From Crocinitomicaceae bacterium (GTDB lineage: Bacteria; Bacteroidota; Bacteroidia; Flavobacteriales_D; Crocinitomicaceae), in contig JAJTCM010000002.1 in the NCBI GenBank assembly GCA_021325675.1, forward strand, positions 372,001 to 436,000: DNA of 64,000 nt. The letters are read 5' to 3'. The notes beneath the pieces were generated by a model. The model was not told where the DNA came from. It saw only the letters and a program-made list of their open reading frames with translations, and ran no database searches. Below, in pieces: positions 36,607 through 43,926 of the stretch. Position 1 is the stretch's first letter; each line of letters begins with the position of its first letter. A program made the position numbers and the translations under genes.

Positions 36607-36703
36607 TTTATTGGCTTTTGCGATATTAAGACCTTTCCCTGACATCTTAGCATCTTTTAACAACAGGAAAAAACCAAAACGCCTTTTATTTCGTTAATTG
36701 AAT

Positions 36704-37744
36704 ATGAAAACAGTGACAACCATTTTTAGTTTTGTTTGTTTTTCTATATTTGGCTGCTCGGATGCACACCCGGATACAGTAAAAAACAAAAGCTTCGGTA
36801 TGGCCGGAAAAGTAGTGAAATCAGAAAAAGAGTGGAAAATGGAATTAGACGACGAAACATATCGCATTACGCGCCAGAAAGGAACAGAACGGGCTTTCAC
36901 AGGAAAATACTGGAACCATCATGAAAAAGGCGAATATCGCTGCGTATGCTGCGGGAACCCTTTGTTTGAAAGCAAAACGAAATTTGATTCAAGAACAGGA
37001 TGGCCGAGCTTTTATGATGTAGTGGCACATAAAAATATAGGTGAAGTTAAAGATAACAGCCTGGGAATAGCCCGCACGGAAGTGGTTTGCGCGAAATGCG
37101 ATGCCCATTTGGGCCACGTGTTCGATGACGGCCCGAAACCAACAGGTTTGCGTTATTGCATCAATTCCGCTTCCCTGAATTTTGTGGGAGAAAAGGAACT
37201 GGAGGAGGAAAACCGCCGCAAAGAAGCTACGTTTGGCGCTGGATGTTTCTGGTGTATCGAAGCTTGTTTTAAAGAGCTGGAAGGCGTTGTTTCGGTACAA
37301 TCCGGTTATTCCGGCGGTGCGAAGGTCAACCCGACTTACGAAGAAGTATGCGGCGGTAAAACCGGTCACGCGGAGGTGGCCCGCATTGTTTACGATCCGG
37401 CCGTGATTTCTTTCGATGAGCTGCTTGAAGCCTTCTGGTTTGTTCATGATCCGACACAGCTCAATCGCCAAGGCAACGATATCGGAACACAATACCGCTC
37501 GGTGATTTTTTACCACGATGAGGAACAGCGGGAAATTGCCGAAAAATACAAGCAGCGACTCACCGAAGAGAAAGTGTGGGACAAGCCTATTGTAACGGAA
37601 ATCTCAAAGCTGACGAATTTCTACCCGGCAGAGGATTATCACAACAATTACCTGGAGCTTAACCCGGAAAATGCGTATTGCCAGGCGATTGTAAGACCTA
37701 AAGTAGATAAATTCAAAAAGGTTTTTGCAAAAAAGTTAAAGTAA
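36704..37744 (+). CDS. msrBA: Lipidated MsrB-MsrA methionine sulfoxide reductase fusion
   Basis: The start is the ATG at 36704; the frame open from a TTG 6 bp earlier is less likely. [18 protein letters not shown] is a lipoprotein signal (Cys18). MsrB comes first: zinc cysteines Cys80/83 and Cys129/132, and catalytic [11 protein letters not shown] (Cys152). MsrA follows with GAGCFWCIE (Cys181) and [20 protein letters not shown]. The two domains reduce the R and S forms of methionine sulfoxide in proteins. The lipid anchor places the enzyme outside the cytoplasm, so it would repair envelope or surface proteins and needs an external source of reductant. Confidence 0.93.
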
Positions 37745-37775: not shown

Positions 37776-38384
37776 TTAGCGCTTGCGTTTCGAGCGGATA
37801 TTATTTGAAAACAGCCACAACAATAAAGCAAAAGCAAGCACCAAAATAGCCCCGGCGAAGCAGCTGATTGCCAGCACAAAGAAAAGGGCATTAACCGCTG
37901 AGGCTACGTTCAGGCCGATGAGGAGGAAAATAGTGGCCAGCAAGAGGAGCATACCGGCAATAGCAACATACAATAAAGCAAAATCATCCAATAAATTACG
38001 CCTGGCGCCCGTGTGTTTTCGTTCGCCCTCTTTTTGATTTTCTTCCTGACTGATGCTCGTTTTTCGTTCAGGCTTTAGTTCGGCTTTTTCAGTGTGTAGT
38101 GAAGGTGTATCAACCGAATACGCATTTACTTCAGCGGGTTTTATCTGATTTACAAACTTTTCTTGATCGACAATAGCAATTTCGTCAGCTATTTTTTCCT
38201 CATCCGGAGCTGTGAGCGAATAACTCTCCTGTGGTTCAGCTTCCACTTTTTCAGAAGGATTAACCGCTTTTTTCTGCCAATGCCACTGAACGAAATAGCC
38301 TTTGTTAACGGTACGTTTTTGAATTGTACACGCAGAAGCTGCGGCCAGGATACAAAACAGGAAAAAGAGTTGTCGGAGCTTCAT
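37776..38384 (-). CDS. Lipoprotein of the tandem QKRTVNxGYFVQW pair, second gene
   Basis: MKLRQLFFLFCILAAASAC is a lipoprotein signal (Cys19). Immediately after the cysteine comes TIQKRTVNKGYFVQWHW, almost the same as in the gene upstream. A charged linker of about 90 residues follows, then three close membrane helices (FALLYVAIAGMLLLLATIFL and on to the end) and a basic tail NIRSKRKR. A lipid-anchored N-terminus plus C-terminal membrane helices implies that the linker faces the periplasm. It starts 2 bp after the stop of its paralogue. The family is not recognised. Confidence 0.7.
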   Translation of the reverse strand: MKLRQLFFLFCILAAASACTIQKRTVNKGYFVQWHWQKKAVNPSEKVEAEPQESYSLTAPDEEKIADEIAIVDQEKFVNQIKPAEVNAYSVDTPSLHTEKAELKPERKTSISQEENQKEGERKHTGARRNLLDDFALLYVAIAGMLLLLATIFLLIGLNVASAVNALFFVLAISCFAGAILVLAFALLLWLFSNNIRSKRKR

Positions 38385-38386
38385 CG

Positions 38387-39112
38387 TTATTTGTTAAGTA
38401 AAATAATAAAATAAACAAAGAACAAAATGTATGAAATAAGGAACAGGAGGTGTATGATCTGTTTGCCGCGTTTTATTTTCTGATTCTGCTGTTTAGAGCT
38501 CACCCCGGTATAACCTTCTTCCTGCTCCCGTTTTAAAATATGTGACATTTTAAAGAAGGCCAATGTCTTAAAAAAGCTCATCACCAAAACGTGGGCAATG
38601 GGGAATAATAAAATCACAATGGCAATATCACCGGTAGATAAAAGGAAAACGGCCAGGGCCCATCCCAGGAAAAGCGTAAGTAGACAAACGGCCAGGTTTC
38701 CTATTCCCATCGCAATATAATACTCCCGGCCCCTTTCCTTTTTTTCTTTTGGCGCCTGCGGAATACTTACTGATTGGTGAAACGTTTTGGATTGCTTTAT
38801 CTTCTGGGGAAAAAAACCCATACGCGCTTGCTTCAGCCTGTTCCCTTCTTCCGGATAAACAGCTGCTTCGGGACTACTTTCTACGTGTGCCGTTTCGATG
38901 CTTGAAACAGAGTCTGTGGAAATAAGCGCAATACGCTTTTCCTCTTGTGGATCGCTCCGGATGATGTTTGCTGTTCCGGGATCATTGCCGGTCTTTGCTT
39001 TGAAGTGCCATTGCACGAAATAACCCCGGTTTACAGTCCTTTTCTGAACTGTGCAAGCCGTGAACATCCAAAAGAACAGGAGAAAATAAGCAAAGGAAGG
39101 CATCTTTTTCAT
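38387..39112 (-). CDS. Lipoprotein of the tandem QKRTVNxGYFVQW pair, first gene
   Basis: The start at 39112 (MKKMPSFAYFLLFFWMFTAC, Cys20) gives a normal lipoprotein signal; the open frame upstream adds 18 unlikely residues. TVQKRTVNRGYFVQWHF follows the cysteine. After a linker with EEGNRLKQARMGFFPQK come hydrophobic helices (NLAVCLLTLFLGWALAVFLL, IAIVILLFPIAHVLVMSFF) and a last one (LFLISYILFFVYFIILL). Outside the motif it resembles its neighbour in layout but little in sequence, so the duplication is old or the motif is the functional part. Function is unknown. Confidence 0.7.
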   Translation of the reverse strand: MKKMPSFAYFLLFFWMFTACTVQKRTVNRGYFVQWHFKAKTGNDPGTANIIRSDPQEEKRIALISTDSVSSIETAHVESSPEAAVYPEEGNRLKQARMGFFPQKIKQSKTFHQSVSIPQAPKEKKERGREYYIAMGIGNLAVCLLTLFLGWALAVFLLSTGDIAIVILLFPIAHVLVMSFFKTLAFFKMSHILKREQEEGYTGVSSKQQNQKIKRGKQIIHLLFLISYILFFVYFIILLNK

Positions 39113-39204
39113 AAGATGGCGGCTGAATGAGTTAACCGGAACTAAGATAAAAATAAAAAGCCACAAATGTATTTATAAGGGAAAAAAATGCAAACTTTGC
39201 CGCC

Positions 39205-39777
39205 ATGGCAGCCAATTTTATTTCCGACCGGCATTTTGAAAAATGTAATTTTTCTACAGATCCGCCCGAAAGGGGAACGTATGAAAATTGCACCTTTGAG
39301 GACTGTGACTTTTCCGGCGGAAATTTATCACTGCTTTCCTTTGAAGAATGCGAATTCCGGAACTGCAACCTGAGCCTGGTGAAAATGGGTGAAACGGCTT
39401 TGAAGAACGTGCAGTTTTCAGATTGTAAAATGATCGGGATCCATTTTGAACACTGCAATCCTTTTTTGCTGGCTTTCACTTTCGAAAACTGCAAGCTCGA
39501 CCTGTCATCGTTTTACGGCTTAAAAATCAAAAAAACGACGTTCGAAAACTGTTCGCTCCACGAGGTTGATTTGTCGTCCTGCGATCTTGAAGGAGCTTCG
39601 TTCATTAACTGCGATTTGCTCGGCAGCCGTTTTGACCGTACGAACCTCGAAAAAGCGGATTTACGCTCAGCTTTCAATTACAGCATCGACCCGGAAAACA
39701 ATAAGCTCCGCAAAGCGAAATTTTCCCTCTCAGGCGTGAAAGGCTTATTACATAAATACGAGATCTCAATCAGCTAA
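39205..39777 (+). CDS. Pentapeptide-repeat protein
   Basis: The 190-residue protein has an A(N/D)LxF-type five-residue periodicity over nearly its whole length: YENCTFEDCDFSGGNLS, FEECEFRNCNLS, FENCKLDLSSF, LSSCDLEGASFINCDLLGSR and DRTNLEKADLRS. This folds as a right-handed beta helix. There is no signal peptide or membrane helix. Some such proteins mimic DNA and inhibit gyrase, but most have no known role. Its last 12 bases overlap the end of the convergent hydrolase gene. Confidence 0.88.
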   Translation: MAANFISDRHFEKCNFSTDPPERGTYENCTFEDCDFSGGNLSLLSFEECEFRNCNLSLVKMGETALKNVQFSDCKMIGIHFEHCNPFLLAFTFENCKLDLSSFYGLKIKKTTFENCSLHEVDLSSCDLEGASFINCDLLGSRFDRTNLEKADLRSAFNYSIDPENNKLRKAKFSLSGVKGLLHKYEISIS

Positions 39778-40644
39778 GCGTTCTAACGGCCGCGTGAGAC
39801 AAGTGGGCCCGCCGCCGCCTTTGACACTGATTTCATTCCCGGTATATTCGTGCACGGTACACCCTGCATCCAGCAAACGCTGCTTGGTAACGGGATTTCC
39901 TTTCACCATAAGACAAACAGAATCTTCGAGCGCGAGCACGTTGCAACCCATCGAATCGTATTCTTCTTCGGGAACTTCCACCAGGCGGTAACCACGCTTC
40001 AGCAGCTCGTTCCGGAAGGAAATCGGCATCAGCGGCGAATAAACAACGGCTATATTTTTAGCAACCGGACTGAATATCGACATCAGGTGAAATACATCGC
40101 TTTGCCCCCGGAAATGCGGCAGGGAATAAGATACAACACTGACACCGTGCGGCTCGAGTAAATTTCTCAGCTGGGCAATTCCTTCTTCATTGGTGCGGTA
40201 CGTATGCCCCACTGCCAGCGTCTTTTCGTCCAGCCAGGCCACATCGCCGCCTTCTACCGTTCCGGGCGCAGTAATTTCACCCAGGATTTGAATTCCCAGG
40301 CTTTCATATAATTTACGGGCTTCAGCGGGTTCGTCCAGGCGGTTTTCTTTTCCCATCGTACAGAGGATCATCCCGAAATCCGTAGCGATGGAAGCATCCC
40401 GGCAATAAATGGAATCAATGGAAATCTCGGCTTGCGGCAGGTAATCAATCTGTGCCCCGCTTTGACGGATATACGCTTCAAAATCCCGGTATTCGGAAAG
40501 GGCGCCTCCAAAATCCGGTTTTCCGAGAAAGTTGAGGTTTTTCCACTCCCGTTCAAGTCTCGAATCGCTGTCAAAAGCGTTTTCAGCCGGCTTTATAATG
40601 ATGCGTTTGATTTTCCCCGTTTCAGAGTGACACGTATATTTCAT
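39766..40644 (-). CDS. Dimethylarginine-hydrolase-like amidinotransferase-fold enzyme
   Basis: The start is the ATG at 40644 (a TTG lies 6 bp earlier). The 292-residue protein has the guanidine-modifying fold: SIYCRDASIATDFG (about 78-91), TVEGGDVAW (catalytic Glu131 by analogy), SDVFHLMSIF (His186) and GGGGPTCLTRPL (Cys282, the nucleophile). The ...RTNEEGIAQLR segment resembles dimethylarginine dimethylaminohydrolase (DDAH), while the C-terminal cysteine loop resembles arginine deiminase. The likely reaction is hydrolysis of a (methyl)guanidino group to a ureido group plus an amine. It closes the four-gene operon, 9 bp after the transporter gene. Confidence 0.85.
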   Translation of the reverse strand: MKYTCHSETGKIKRIIIKPAENAFDSDSRLEREWKNLNFLGKPDFGGALSEYRDFEAYIRQSGAQIDYLPQAEISIDSIYCRDASIATDFGMILCTMGKENRLDEPAEARKLYESLGIQILGEITAPGTVEGGDVAWLDEKTLAVGHTYRTNEEGIAQLRNLLEPHGVSVVSYSLPHFRGQSDVFHLMSIFSPVAKNIAVVYSPLMPISFRNELLKRGYRLVEVPEEEYDSMGCNVLALEDSVCLMVKGNPVTKQRLLDAGCTVHEYTGNEISVKGGGGPTCLTRPLERLAD

Positions 40645-40653
40645 GTTCAATTT

Positions 40654-41934
40654 TTAAGTGCGTTTAAATAGAAAATATCCGGGTATTCCGGCGACAAGAA
40701 GTGCCAGTCCCCAGTAAATTGATTCAGCGCCCGAACCGATAATGGCCCAGGCAACAAAAATAATGGCTAAAACCGTAAGCGTAATTTTCAGGATATTTTT
40801 TTCCCCGCGAAGCAATAGCAGCAGGAAAGCCGAAGCGGTAAACAAATAAGGCAGCAGCGCCATGAGTGTCGAAAGCAGTAAAATAAACTGGAAAGTACTG
40901 ACGAAATTTTCAGTGAAGTTCAGGGCAACCATGATGGAAACCAAAACACTTGAGATCATCAATCCTGCTGTTGGCATTCCGTGACGGTTTTTGCGGGCAA
41001 AGATCTTGGGAAAAACACCGTCTTCCGCAGCTGCAGCCGGAACTTGCCCCTGCATGAGGATCCAGCCGTTCAACGCCCCAAAAGCCGAAATCAGCGCCCC
41101 GGTTGCAACGAGATAAGCCGCTGGCTGGCCCCAGAGTATAGACGCAGCCGCTGCAAAAGGAGAGGAAGAATTTTTCAGCTCGGCGGGTGGGATCAAGCCC
41201 ATCAGTACGGCGGAGCTCAGGATATAAATCACGATCGCTGCGGACGTGCCGAACAGCGTTGCGCGCGGGATCGTTTTTCCCGAATTTTCAATCCCAGCGG
41301 AAGGAATGGTGGCGCTTTCGAGCCCCAGGAAAGCAAAGAGCGCGAGCGTTAGGGCTGAAGTCATGGCCGGGAAAAAGGAAGTACCAGCCGGAAGATCAGC
41401 CTTAAAATAATCGAAATTGAGAAAAAACAAACCGTAAATCCCGATCGCCAGCAAGGGAATTATTTTGATAATTGTTGTAATCAATTGCAAGCTTCCGGAA
41501 ACAGTAATTTCGCGGGTATTAACCCAGGTGAGCAGCCAGACTGCAGCTAGCCCGGCAAGGACCGGGTAAAGCGAATTTTCATGCAAAACCGGGAAAAATA
41601 CGCTCAAGTAGCTCACAAAAGCAACAGCGATAGCGGCATTTGTCGTCCAGATAGAAATCCAATAACCCCAGGCTACAAGATATGCCGGAAAATCACCGAA
41701 TGCAACGCGGGTATAAGCGTAAGGCCCGCCCTGAAGCCCGGGATACAAAGCCGCCATACTTTTAAATACAAAAGCTAATACCAATGCCCCCAAAGCTGCC
41801 ATCCCCCATGCAGGCAAACTGATCCAGCCAAATGCGGCCATGCTTGCAGGCAGTAAAAAAATACCCGAGCCGATCATATTTCCCAATACGAGCGAGCTTG
41901 CACTCCAAAAACCGAGTTTGCCGTTTTGTTCCAT
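40654..41934 (-). CDS. APC-family amino-acid permease
   Basis: The start at 41934 (MEQNGKLGFWSASSLVLGNM) lies 1 bp after the stop of the CtlX-like gene; the longer frame is a shadow of that gene. The 426-residue protein has about 12 membrane helices and the APC motifs LGNMIGSGIFLLPAS in the first helix (backbone binding of the amino group) and FAFLGLESATIPSAGIEN in the sixth. It is nearest in style to the AdiC/YjeH branch (arginine/agmatine or related substrates). Placed between two guanidino/ureido-group hydrolases, it probably imports or exchanges their substrate or product. Confidence 0.9.
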   Translation of the reverse strand: MEQNGKLGFWSASSLVLGNMIGSGIFLLPASMAAFGWISLPAWGMAALGALVLAFVFKSMAALYPGLQGGPYAYTRVAFGDFPAYLVAWGYWISIWTTNAAIAVAFVSYLSVFFPVLHENSLYPVLAGLAAVWLLTWVNTREITVSGSLQLITTIIKIIPLLAIGIYGLFFLNFDYFKADLPAGTSFFPAMTSALTLALFAFLGLESATIPSAGIENSGKTIPRATLFGTSAAIVIYILSSAVLMGLIPPAELKNSSSPFAAAASILWGQPAAYLVATGALISAFGALNGWILMQGQVPAAAAEDGVFPKIFARKNRHGMPTAGLMISSVLVSIMVALNFTENFVSTFQFILLLSTLMALLPYLFTASAFLLLLLRGEKNILKITLTVLAIIFVAWAIIGSGAESIYWGLALLVAGIPGYFLFKRT

Positions 41935-41935
41935 A

Positions 41936-42847
41936 TCAGAAAATTTCGGCCAGCATGCAGCGCGCGCTTCCGCCGCCAATGGTTTCAATGGTTTCGAGAT
42001 CGGGTGCCAGGATGAGGTTATTATGCCGCGCGATCTGTTCAAGCTGTATTTGCGTGAGCGAGCTTTTTGCTTTTTGCGACATCACCAGGAATTTTTCGCC
42101 CTGCTTGTTTTGCAGCTGAAGTGCATTCCCGGTAAAGTGCCGATAAATTTGTTCGTTTGAGAGTAAAATCAGTTCCTTGCCGAGCGATTCCAGCTTGTTT
42201 TTCACTCTTTCCCGGTCGTTTGGCGCAATAGTATCCAAGCCGATGAGCACAAAACTGTCAGCGATGCACAACATCACGTTTGTGTGATAAATCAGCTCGC
42301 CGGCTGGCCCCAAAGCTTGAAAGGCAACGATTTCGTTCCCGCTTTTCTGACTGTAAATTTCCAGCACATCAAAATTAGTTCGGGGTGAAAGTGCAGCAAA
42401 AGCCACGTTTTTTTCGTGGTCAATGATCAAGCTTCCCGTGCCTTCGAGGTAACGGCCGGATTTTTCGTAATCTTCTAAAAGACGGTCAACGCGGTACTTA
42501 TATTCTTGTTCAAGAAAAGAAATAATTTTCAGATCGCGTTCCGCACGCCGGTTTTCGGCCGCCATCGGGAAGGTGAGCAATACACCGTGTTGATCCGTGC
42601 AAAACCAATTGTTCGGGAAAATAGAATCGGGTGTTTGATCCGAATGGGCCTGGAAATCAAGCACGGTAATCCCATGATCTCTTAATAATTGTACAAAAGC
42701 CCGGAATTCTTGCAATGCTTTTTGCTGGATTTCTTCCGCGGAAAATCCGTGTTCTTTCTGCTGGAAGGAATTGCTCGCTTCCGTTTGCTGGTTGAAACCG
42801 AAATTCACCGGCTCAACCAGGAGGACTGTGTCGCAAATGCGCGCCAT
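41936..42847 (-). CDS. ctlX: CtlX-like citrulline hydrolase
   Basis: The 303-residue protein belongs to the amidinotransferase fold and has the opening VLLVEPVNFGFNQQTEASN seen in CtlX proteins, SIFPNNWFCTD (about 72-82), YLEGTGSLIIDHE (about 132-144), YHTNVMLCI and the C-terminal GGGSARCMLAEIF (Cys297, the nucleophile). In Francisella CtlX converts citrulline to ornithine. The gene shares one base with the stop of the Rieske gene and is followed 1 bp later by the permease gene, so all are translated together. The substrate may be citrulline or a related ureido compound. Confidence 0.85.
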   Translation of the reverse strand: MARICDTVLLVEPVNFGFNQQTEASNSFQQKEHGFSAEEIQQKALQEFRAFVQLLRDHGITVLDFQAHSDQTPDSIFPNNWFCTDQHGVLLTFPMAAENRRAERDLKIISFLEQEYKYRVDRLLEDYEKSGRYLEGTGSLIIDHEKNVAFAALSPRTNFDVLEIYSQKSGNEIVAFQALGPAGELIYHTNVMLCIADSFVLIGLDTIAPNDRERVKNKLESLGKELILLSNEQIYRHFTGNALQLQNKQGEKFLVMSQKAKSSLTQIQLEQIARHNNLILAPDLETIETIGGGSARCMLAEIF

Positions 42848-43926
42848 CAGGGAATAAATTTAGCCAGGAGGGAGTGAAAATGGTGTGTCCCCTGCTCGCG
42901 GGTCACGGAATAGCGTCCATGCGTATAAAAACGGGAGCGGATGCCTTTTTGCACCTGTTCCACGACTTCTTCGTCTTCCATTTCTACTGTTTCCAGGTCG
43001 GCGCCTGCCCCGTGACCGAATTTTTCTTCATCGAGAACGAAAGAATAAAAGCTAACTTTCGTTTCTTCCGGCGAAATAGGCTGGATAATGTTCAATGACA
43101 ATCCCCAGGGATAAAAATTAAACATCATGTTCGGGAAAACCCAGAAATAATATGCGGCGATATTTTTCCCGTTGTCTGGCGACGTGAACGGCAAATCAAA
43201 GCTCGGTTCGCCTTCCTTCGCAATCCCGATCTGCAGGTTCGAAAAGCGGAACAGTTCGGTTGTGTATTTATTAAAATCAAGGATTTCGTTCAGGCCTTTA
43301 TGTACGAATGGAATGTGAAAGCCTTCGAGGTAATTTTCGCAGTAAAGCGCCCAATTGGCGTTTACCGTAAATTCTTTGGATAAATCCGGGCGAAATTCCA
43401 GCTCGTCCATCGGGTACCACGCCATCCGCTCCTGCATTTCACCGAAAAAGTCATCCGGATTGGCGTCACAGCTCAGGCTGGTAAATAAAAGCTTGCCAAA
43501 CTGGAAAACAGGCAATTGCGGAAGGTTATCGGCTTCCGTCGGAAAATTTTCCACTTCCTGGAATTGCGGCATCATCATAAATTTTCCGCTGAGATCGAAC
43601 TGGCGGCCGTGGTAGCGACAGGTCAGCCGTTTCAGCTTACAGAGATCATTGACCAGGATATTTCCCCGGTGGGTGCAAACATTGCTCAGGCAGTGGATTT
43701 TTCCTTCTGCATCGCGTGTCAGGAGCAATGGCTCATCGAGGTAGTTTTCCAGCAGGGTAAAAGGCAGGGCGGAGCCGTTCTCAGGCAGCATGTCCGAAGT
43801 TCCGATATATTGAAAGCTTTTCGCAAAGATTTTTTCCTTGGAGCGTTCAAAAATTTCGGGGTTTAAATAAAAATCGGTTGAAATGGTTTTGGCGAAAGCG
43901 ATATCCGGGTCAATAACGAATTCCAT
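42847..43926 (-). CDS. Rieske non-heme iron oxygenase, alpha subunit
   Basis: The 359-residue protein has the Rieske [2Fe-2S] ligands CTH (Cys84, His86) and CRYH (Cys103, His106), and the mononuclear iron site in CENYLEGFHIPFVH (His204, His209). The C-terminus (GRYSVTREQGTHHFH) matches the group that includes choline and glycine-betaine monooxygenases. Such enzymes often N-demethylate or hydroxylate quaternary or methylated amines. No reductase gene is next to it, so electrons must come from elsewhere. It is the first gene of the operon; the methyltransferase gene is divergent 86 bp away. The substrate is unknown. Confidence 0.92.
   Translation of the reverse strand: MEFVIDPDIAFAKTISTDFYLNPEIFERSKEKIFAKSFQYIGTSDMLPENGSALPFTLLENYLDEPLLLTRDAEGKIHCLSNVCTHRGNILVNDLCKLKRLTCRYHGRQFDLSGKFMMMPQFQEVENFPTEADNLPQLPVFQFGKLLFTSLSCDANPDDFFGEMQERMAWYPMDELEFRPDLSKEFTVNANWALYCENYLEGFHIPFVHKGLNEILDFNKYTTELFRFSNLQIGIAKEGEPSFDLPFTSPDNGKNIAAYYFWVFPNMMFNFYPWGLSLNIIQPISPEETKVSFYSFVLDEEKFGHGAGADLETVEMEDEEVVEQVQKGIRSRFYTHGRYSVTREQGTHHFHSLLAKFIP

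Follow-up and report, generated by a model that had tools for sequence, protein, structure and literature searches.

A minus-strand operon for a Rieske oxygenase, CtlX, an AdiC-like permease and a DDAH-like hydrolase in a Crocinitomicaceae genome, and its possible role in the use of modified arginine

Organisation of the operon

The stretch of DNA analysed here (the window) comprises 64,000 nucleotides of contig JAJTCM010000002.1 (positions 372,001 to 436,000) from the genome of a Crocinitomicaceae bacterium (3.57 Mb, 99.8% complete). It contains four minus-strand genes encoding a Rieske oxygenase, CtlX, a permease and a hydrolase resembling dimethylarginine dimethylaminohydrolase (DDAH), the last of which is named ddahL in this work (Table 1). 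All four are complete frames in the list of open reading frames (ORFs), with family matches, in 5' to 3' order of the operon, to Rieske and Ring_hydroxyl_A, DDAH_eukar, AA_permease_2 and ADI/DDAH. The Rieske and CtlX genes overlap by one base within the sequence TGATG, and gaps of 1 bp and 9 bp separate CtlX from the permease and the permease from ddahL, respectively. These gaps apply to ATG starts, which are used throughout for gene ends; the ORF list gives longer TTG starts at 42042 (permease) and 40650 (ddahL). This tight layout suggests a single transcription unit. Both the layout and the intact catalytic residues reported in a first-pass annotation of the window were confirmed, all positions named for the Rieske, CtlX and DDAH-like proteins being read back. 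Scanning gave 6 promoter-like sites (sigma-70-type sites only) against 7.2 expected in shuffled sequences, and 9 terminator-like sites against 9.9 expected, so that neither kind of signal exceeded the shuffled background.

Table 1. Genes of the operon, with positions in the window
Gene product	Position	Strand	Remarks
Rieske non-heme iron oxygenase, group V-like	42847-43926	minus	Nearest solved structure is carnitine monooxygenase CntA
CtlX, putative citrullinase (citrulline to ornithine)	41936-42847	minus	NF046062 score; FPNN/HTN motifs; Cys297
APC-family permease, AdiC-like (relative of the arginine/agmatine antiporter)	40654-41934	minus	ATG start at 41934
ddahL, putative guanidino-group-modifying hydrolase between DDAH and arginine deiminase	39766-40644	minus	HLM replaces HLD/HLK; ATG start at 40644

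Recurrence of the genes among Bacteroidota

Searching named genomes with an alignment of ddahL found 359 relatives; the 80 best, at 61-67% identity, were retained. The contigs bearing them are nearly all of Bacteroidota by title, with one of the 80 titled Comamonas sp. A permease gene precedes ddahL on the same strand in 74 of these 80 loci, lying within 400 bp in 71 and further off in three (L198, L204 and L215), and was not found in the remaining six. Seven of the loci include a Rieske gene: in six it lies next to the permease-ddahL pair on the opposite strand, and in one it adjoins ddahL where no permease was detected. For 31 of the 80, the contig ends within 5 kb on one side, so a distant partner could be missed there. 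CtlX stands beside none of the 80 (matches to E 1e-12, with as much as 8 kb covered on either side), and conservation of the four-gene set as a neighbourhood across Bacteroidota was thus not borne out.

In a phylum sample of 395 genomes, 26 possess a ddahL match (threshold E 1e-10): seven of the close family (57-100% identity), six of a second clade (39-43%) and thirteen distant ones (26-31%). Within a 199-genome sample of the order, the other 198 genomes show no close relative and a single remote match of 31%. A Rieske match occurs in 35 of the 395 phylum genomes, namely in all seven with close ddahL against 28 of the 388 others (Fisher p 2.4e-8, ignoring descent; the seven genomes span five families). 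Counted by genus, it is found in 6/6 ddahL genera against 26/171 in all (hypergeometric p 7e-6, descent again ignored). Of another 50 ddahL genomes, taken from the 80 (mostly metagenome-assembled genomes (MAGs), with no matched control), 36 have a Rieske match. Some ddahL loci and phylum-sample genomes may coincide, for example L148 and G342, whose contigs are equally long.

The permease, ddahL and the Rieske oxygenase are therefore a recurring association across Bacteroidota, and the first-pass view that the genes are linked stands for these three, CtlX not being part of the link. The four-gene arrangement is seen only in this genome among those examined. The open-licence literature searched yielded no description of an operon joining a Rieske oxygenase and dimethylarginine dimethylaminohydrolase, no report of arginine betaine catabolism in bacteria and nothing on DDAH residues. 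By title, nothing related was found on Rieske oxygenases with methylarginine, nor any study of the dimethylaminohydrolase with methylarginine as sole nitrogen source; by title and start of abstract, no Rieske pathway of trimethyllysine demethylation was found. As far as that literature extends, no description of the permease-ddahL-Rieske association was found.

The hydrolase ddahL

The 292-residue product of ddahL (counted from the ATG) possesses the catalytic residues E131, H186 and C282; the family counts below are numbered from the TTG start, from which 2 is to be subtracted for ATG numbering. Invariant in all 86 rows of the close family are D79, Y82-C83-R84-D85, R104, E133, D136, R152, H188-L189-M190 and C284. 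A structure model (28-sequence alignment; predicted local distance difference test, pLDDT, 90.2) matches arginine deiminase (ADI) with Z 31.8 over 283 residues, a full-length fold match, and DDAH of Pseudomonas aeruginosa (1h70) with Z 28.9 over 254 residues, followed by ArgZ (27.9), NnhA (27.9) and AgrE (27.4). ADI scores highest by Z, while Foldseek ranks DDAH first. The predicted fold is that of DDAH and ADI, and does not decide between the two. Bit scores lie far below the cut-offs of the curated models of both enzymes (85.8 of 340 and 76.1 of 450 for DDAH, or dimethylargininase; 69.7 of 414 and 57.5 of 489.1 for ADI).

With DDAH of the P. aeruginosa type, ddahL has in common the fold, the Glu/His/Cys triad (E133/H188/C284, 86/86) and the lack of an Asp after the catalytic His-Leu, together with an arginine pair and an aspartate (R104, R152 and D79) aligned with DDAH residues which we take to bind the amino-acid part of the substrate through its amino and carboxyl groups. 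It differs from DDAH in showing only 25-28% identity in structural alignments, in having CRD rather than VED and in having HLM rather than HLK, the aligned DDAH bearing Lys where ddahL bears Met. With ADI, ArgZ, AgrE and NnhA it shares the fold over the whole protein and an FTRD-like motif; unlike ADI it lacks the HLD aspartate and is 292 rather than about 405 residues long. Arginine deiminases and related enzymes have been described to bind substrate through two Asp residues, in the motifs FTRD and HLD (PMC9007349, available portion). The first of these is kept in ddahL (as CRD), whereas HLD is HLM in 86/86 rows. Since Met takes the place of the second guanidine-binding Asp while the arginine-type binding residues are retained, an N-substituted guanidine would suit the site, and we infer that the substrate is of arginine type with a substituent on the guanidine.

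Plain arginine use is another proposal: the permease would import arginine, ddahL would act as a small ADI-like enzyme yielding citrulline and ammonia, CtlX would form ornithine and the Rieske oxygenase would be a loosely attached extra. The top structural match by Z, the resemblance of R84-D85 to FTRD of ADI and the AdiC-like permease are all consistent with it. The invariant Met at the second guanidine-binding position and the distance from the ADI cut-offs speak against it, however, and the co-occurrence of the Rieske gene with ddahL would be left unexplained, so that we hold this proposal to be distinctly unlikely.

The second ddahL clade of the phylum sample keeps the Met in 6/6 members (HLM in five, HVM in one), with R84 replaced by His in 5/6. 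Its members (L134-L139, in G552, G379, G489, G521, G528 and G438) belong to one family of the phylum, and the stretches around these genes contain no permease or Rieske match.

The AdiC-like permease

The permease matches AdiC at E 1e-76, scoring 322.1 bits against a cut-off of 574 for the AdiC equivalog; it reaches the cut-off of none of the antiporter equivalogs. The window's permease retains most of AdiC's aromatic and polar site (N22, S26, N101, E208, W293, F350 and S357); it is unlike AdiC in having Phe for W202 and in that the operon has no decarboxylase gene. Across the 95 rows of its clade, the positions of W202 (F/Y), W293 (W/Y/F) and F350 (F/Y) are aromatic in 95/95, N101 and E208 are invariant (95/95) and S357 is Thr in 54. 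The aromatic residues of AdiC have been tied to cationic substrates (PMC4970712, available portion). In the permease tree, one clade serves loci with Rieske only (17 rows), with ddahL only (25 sampled of 63) and with both (10), the three labels being interleaved; five more Rieske-adjacent permeases belong to another APC subfamily.

The Rieske oxygenase

The residues C84, H86, C103, H106, H204 and H209 are present in the Rieske protein, with D318 the likely third iron ligand by alignment. Its nearest solved protein is CntA (6y8j; E 7.6e-30). Among 75 family rows, E201, H209 and D318 occur in 75/75 and H204 in 74/75 (one X), giving the bridging Glu and the 2-His-1-Asp site of group V. The position of CntA Y203 (199 here) is Tyr in 70/75 and Phe in 5/75, the aromatic residue that defines group Va, whose known members perform C-N cleavage or alcohol oxidation, and the group Vb betaine demethylases carry Asn there (PMC7948474, available portion). 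With the group Va aromatic in place of the group Vb Asn, N-demethylation, the activity that the first-pass annotation linked to Rieske enzymes of the choline/betaine type, is only one option.

The correspondence with CntA extends over E201 (E205), Y/F199 (Y203), Y221 (Y225), N270 (N270) and the 2-His-1-Asp site (roles according to the available part of PMC7948474), the equivalents of Y225 and N270 being kept in 75/75 rows. Group V oxygenases are also described with a pair of cysteines beside the iron site, C206/C209 in CntA (PMC10952381, available portion). The present family differs, with Gly at 202 and Ile/Val at 205 (both 75/75); in addition, F258 is replaced by Ala/Gly and F319 by Val/Thr, and the Y295 position is not conserved. 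These smaller side chains suggest a pocket roomier than that for carnitine. A structure model of the protein (6-sequence alignment, mean pLDDT 30.7) was unusable and was not used.

The dedicated reductases CntB and GbcB are encoded by genes adjacent to those of their oxygenases. The source genome encodes, away from the operon, two PaaE/GbcB-like reductases with FAD, NAD and 2Fe-2S domains, one of which passes the PaaE model cut-off of 420.8 bits (457.5) while the other falls below it (341.9); that either serves the Rieske oxygenase is a guess.

In the linear route of the first-pass annotation, the Rieske enzyme would first demethylate an arginine methylated on its alpha nitrogen (arginine betaine), after which ddahL and CtlX would lead to ornithine. 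An oxygenase of the CntA/GbcA type fits such a step, and in the phylum sample close ddahL is always accompanied by Rieske (7/7), not the reverse. Set against this are the Tyr or Phe found in all 75 rows where the group Vb demethylases have Asn (PMC7948474, available portion) and the further ddahL genomes without a Rieske match. A single linear pathway is at odds with the genomes in which Rieske and permease occur where ddahL was not found, and with those in which ddahL and permease occur where Rieske was not found. We regard the Rieske-first order as improbable.

CtlX

CtlX passes the NCBIfam equivalog NF046062 (352.1 bits, cut-off 334) and carries FPNN at 77 and HTN at 188, in place of FTRD and HLD, together with Cys297. 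The CtlX described in PMC9007349 (available portion) agrees with it in the equivalog, in these motifs, with Asn at both positions of the substrate-binding Asp of ADI, and in the cysteine; it differs in its neighbours, which there are ocd or aruG and here the Rieske oxygenase, the permease and ddahL. The citrulline activity is called putative in that naming paper itself. In the order sample, Rieske and CtlX genes share a contig only in the window's genome (judged by eye, many genomes being fragmented). CtlX occurs widely in the window's class regardless of ddahL, in a distribution that seems to track lineage. Of 36 further ddahL genomes, 26 gave a CtlX match, a figure that may be high, as the 36 were hand-picked from 50 and the 14 omitted were mostly small genomes. 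Its place in the operon, in this genome alone among those examined, is the sole direct pointer to a citrulline intermediate.

Another citrulline-type pairing is present at L101 (G041, contig C221, 4093-5773), where CtlX lies directly beside a distant ADI/DDAH-type gene with about 28-31% identity to ddahL.

Proposed function

Protein digestion releases methylarginines, trimethyllysine and similar residues, and few routes by which bacteria handle them are known. We propose, with a probability of roughly 0.4, that the operon takes up and degrades N-substituted, most likely N-methylated, amino acids of the arginine type, such as those from digested methylated proteins. The AdiC-like permease would import the cationic amino acid, and Cys282 of ddahL, with His186 and Glu131, would attack its guanidine carbon, freeing the substituted amine, such as methylamine or dimethylamine, and leaving citrulline. 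CtlX would then hydrolyse citrulline to ornithine and carbamate; as a local addition in this genome, it may serve to pull citrulline towards ornithine. The Rieske oxygenase, perhaps fed by one of the two PaaE/GbcB-like reductases, would act oxidatively on a C-N bond in a cationic compound that enters through this permease, so as either to trim the same molecule or, in parallel, to open a second modified basic amino acid, for instance trimethyllysine. The substrates of the permease and of the three enzymes are in each case putative. The methylated arginine or guanidino substrate of the first-pass annotation survives as a best guess at the class, to which the AdiC-like site, the arginine-type binding residues, HLM and the amide-type motifs of CtlX all point; its placing on one linear pathway is not supported.

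A wider proposal, which we consider doubtful, is that of an undescribed and widespread Bacteroidota salvage of post-translationally modified basic amino acids. This would combine a shared AdiC-like importer, a new class of substituted-guanidine hydrolases with the HLM signature acting on methylarginines, and a new Rieske clade that uses C-N cleavage to open methylated basic amino acids, with citrulline, itself a modified residue, drained by CtlX here. The permease-hydrolase pair (71 of 80 loci, the best 80 of 359) with its linked oxygenase has no assigned function that we found in the open-licence literature searched, and the data on the operon provide concrete substrates for assay.

Evidence from Rieske loci elsewhere

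Several observations weigh against degradation of N-substituted arginine by the operon as a whole. The ddahL protein reaches no equivalog cut-off for DDAH or ADI, and its R84-D85 resembles that of ADI; S26 of AdiC is Ala in 63 of the 95 permeases; and no reductase gene adjoins the window's Rieske gene, as judged by family search of the operon genes. The link of CtlX to ddahL is not significant (4/7 ddahL genomes against 97/388 others, p 0.07), CtlX being absent in three of the seven ddahL genomes of the phylum sample. Fourteen of the 50 further ddahL genomes are without a Rieske match (mostly MAGs, in which absence is weak evidence) and 28 genomes of the phylum sample carry Rieske but no close ddahL, showing that neither gene strictly needs the other.

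To these points are added the surroundings of Rieske genes in other genomes, examined in three sets: 36 loci of the order sample, 32 of the phylum sample and 20 chosen from the 36 Rieske-positive ddahL genomes. Loci that were the window's own or fragmentary were left out of the counts (own genome, G096 and G162 for the order; own genome, G514 and G443 for the phylum). None of the partners sought was present at 10/36, 18/32 and 17/20 loci, respectively. An AdiC-like permease lies within 400 bp of Rieske in 12/36 order and 11/32 phylum loci (four of these 11 with ddahL), and another APC type stands beside it in 3/32 and 3/20. Other neighbours are an NhaC-type antiporter (13/36), which also matches ArcD below the cut-off; a fusion of an APH domain with a class III pyridoxal phosphate (PLP) enzyme, a phospholyase close to ETNPPL (4/36); and an acyl-CoA dehydrogenase (3/32, as well as the ddahL loci of Flavobacteriaceae type). 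The last of these scores 276.5 of 470 bits as glutaryl-CoA dehydrogenase and 278.8 of 640 as acryloyl-CoA reductase, below every cut-off. Such neighbours favour other substrates for the Rieske enzyme, basic or amino-alcohol ones of its own.

The APH-PLP fusion was observed beside Rieske at L091, L092, L095 and L098, with families searched for L095 only, and the acyl-CoA dehydrogenase at L132, L164, L184, L189, L207, L213, L214, L233 and L236, with families searched for L132 only.

As these neighbours favour substrates of the Rieske enzyme's own, a parallel salvage is retained as the main rival, although we consider it somewhat unlikely. Here the permease would import several modified basic amino acids, ddahL would take those of arginine type and the Rieske enzyme would cleave a quaternary amine, whether of lysine type or not, as in the conversion of trimethyllysine into trimethylamine and 2-aminoadipate semialdehyde; a common importer and diet, rather than a linear route, would unite the genes. 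Beyond the occurrence of either enzyme with the permease where the other was not found, the resemblance of the adjoining dehydrogenase to glutaryl-CoA dehydrogenase and the ETNPPL-like PLP half of the kinase-phospholyase fusion accord with this, as does the group Va cation-pi residue of the Rieske protein (PMC7948474, available portion). These neighbours are, however, confined to particular lineages, where simple synteny may account for them; the dehydrogenase lies below every cut-off, the fusion could equally serve phosphoethanolamine, and the window's genes are one tight operon with CtlX, pointing to chemistry of the ornithine type. Degradation of N-substituted arginine remains our preferred reading of the operon.

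Origin of the Rieske-ddahL association

On the Rieske tree, the label of adjacency to ddahL needs at least three changes (gains or losses) on well-supported branches. The window's Rieske groups with those of ddahL genomes in which the two genes are unlinked, whereas the 11 remaining Rieske proteins adjacent to ddahL belong to the second main division of the tree. The gene orders also differ, the two genes being on the same strand with CtlX between them in the window and divergent elsewhere. Given these separate parts of the tree and differing orders, the Rieske gene and ddahL probably came to lie side by side on two or more occasions. At L173, the acyl-CoA dehydrogenase, permease and ddahL of the Flavobacteriaceae arrangement are kept without Rieske, in a genome (G613) that has no Rieske match.

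Genomic context and neighbouring genes

Base composition shows no sharp break across the operon. Two genomes of the same genus in the order sample have no match for Rieske, ddahL or CtlX, and a clean insertion or empty site could not be drawn in them, the gene order around rarA not being conserved. A pentapeptide-repeat protein is encoded at 39205-39777 on the plus strand, convergent with ddahL, their 3' ends overlapping by 12 bp. Beyond it, two adjoining minus-strand genes (37776-38384 and 38387-39166) encode small proteins with 30% identity over about 90-110 residues and a common motif, CT[IV]QKRTVN[KR]GYFVQWH; neither matches a Pfam or NCBIfam family at E 0.001. The long plus-strand frame at 36698-37744 presumably encodes a fused methionine sulfoxide reductase B-A, judging by its sequence.

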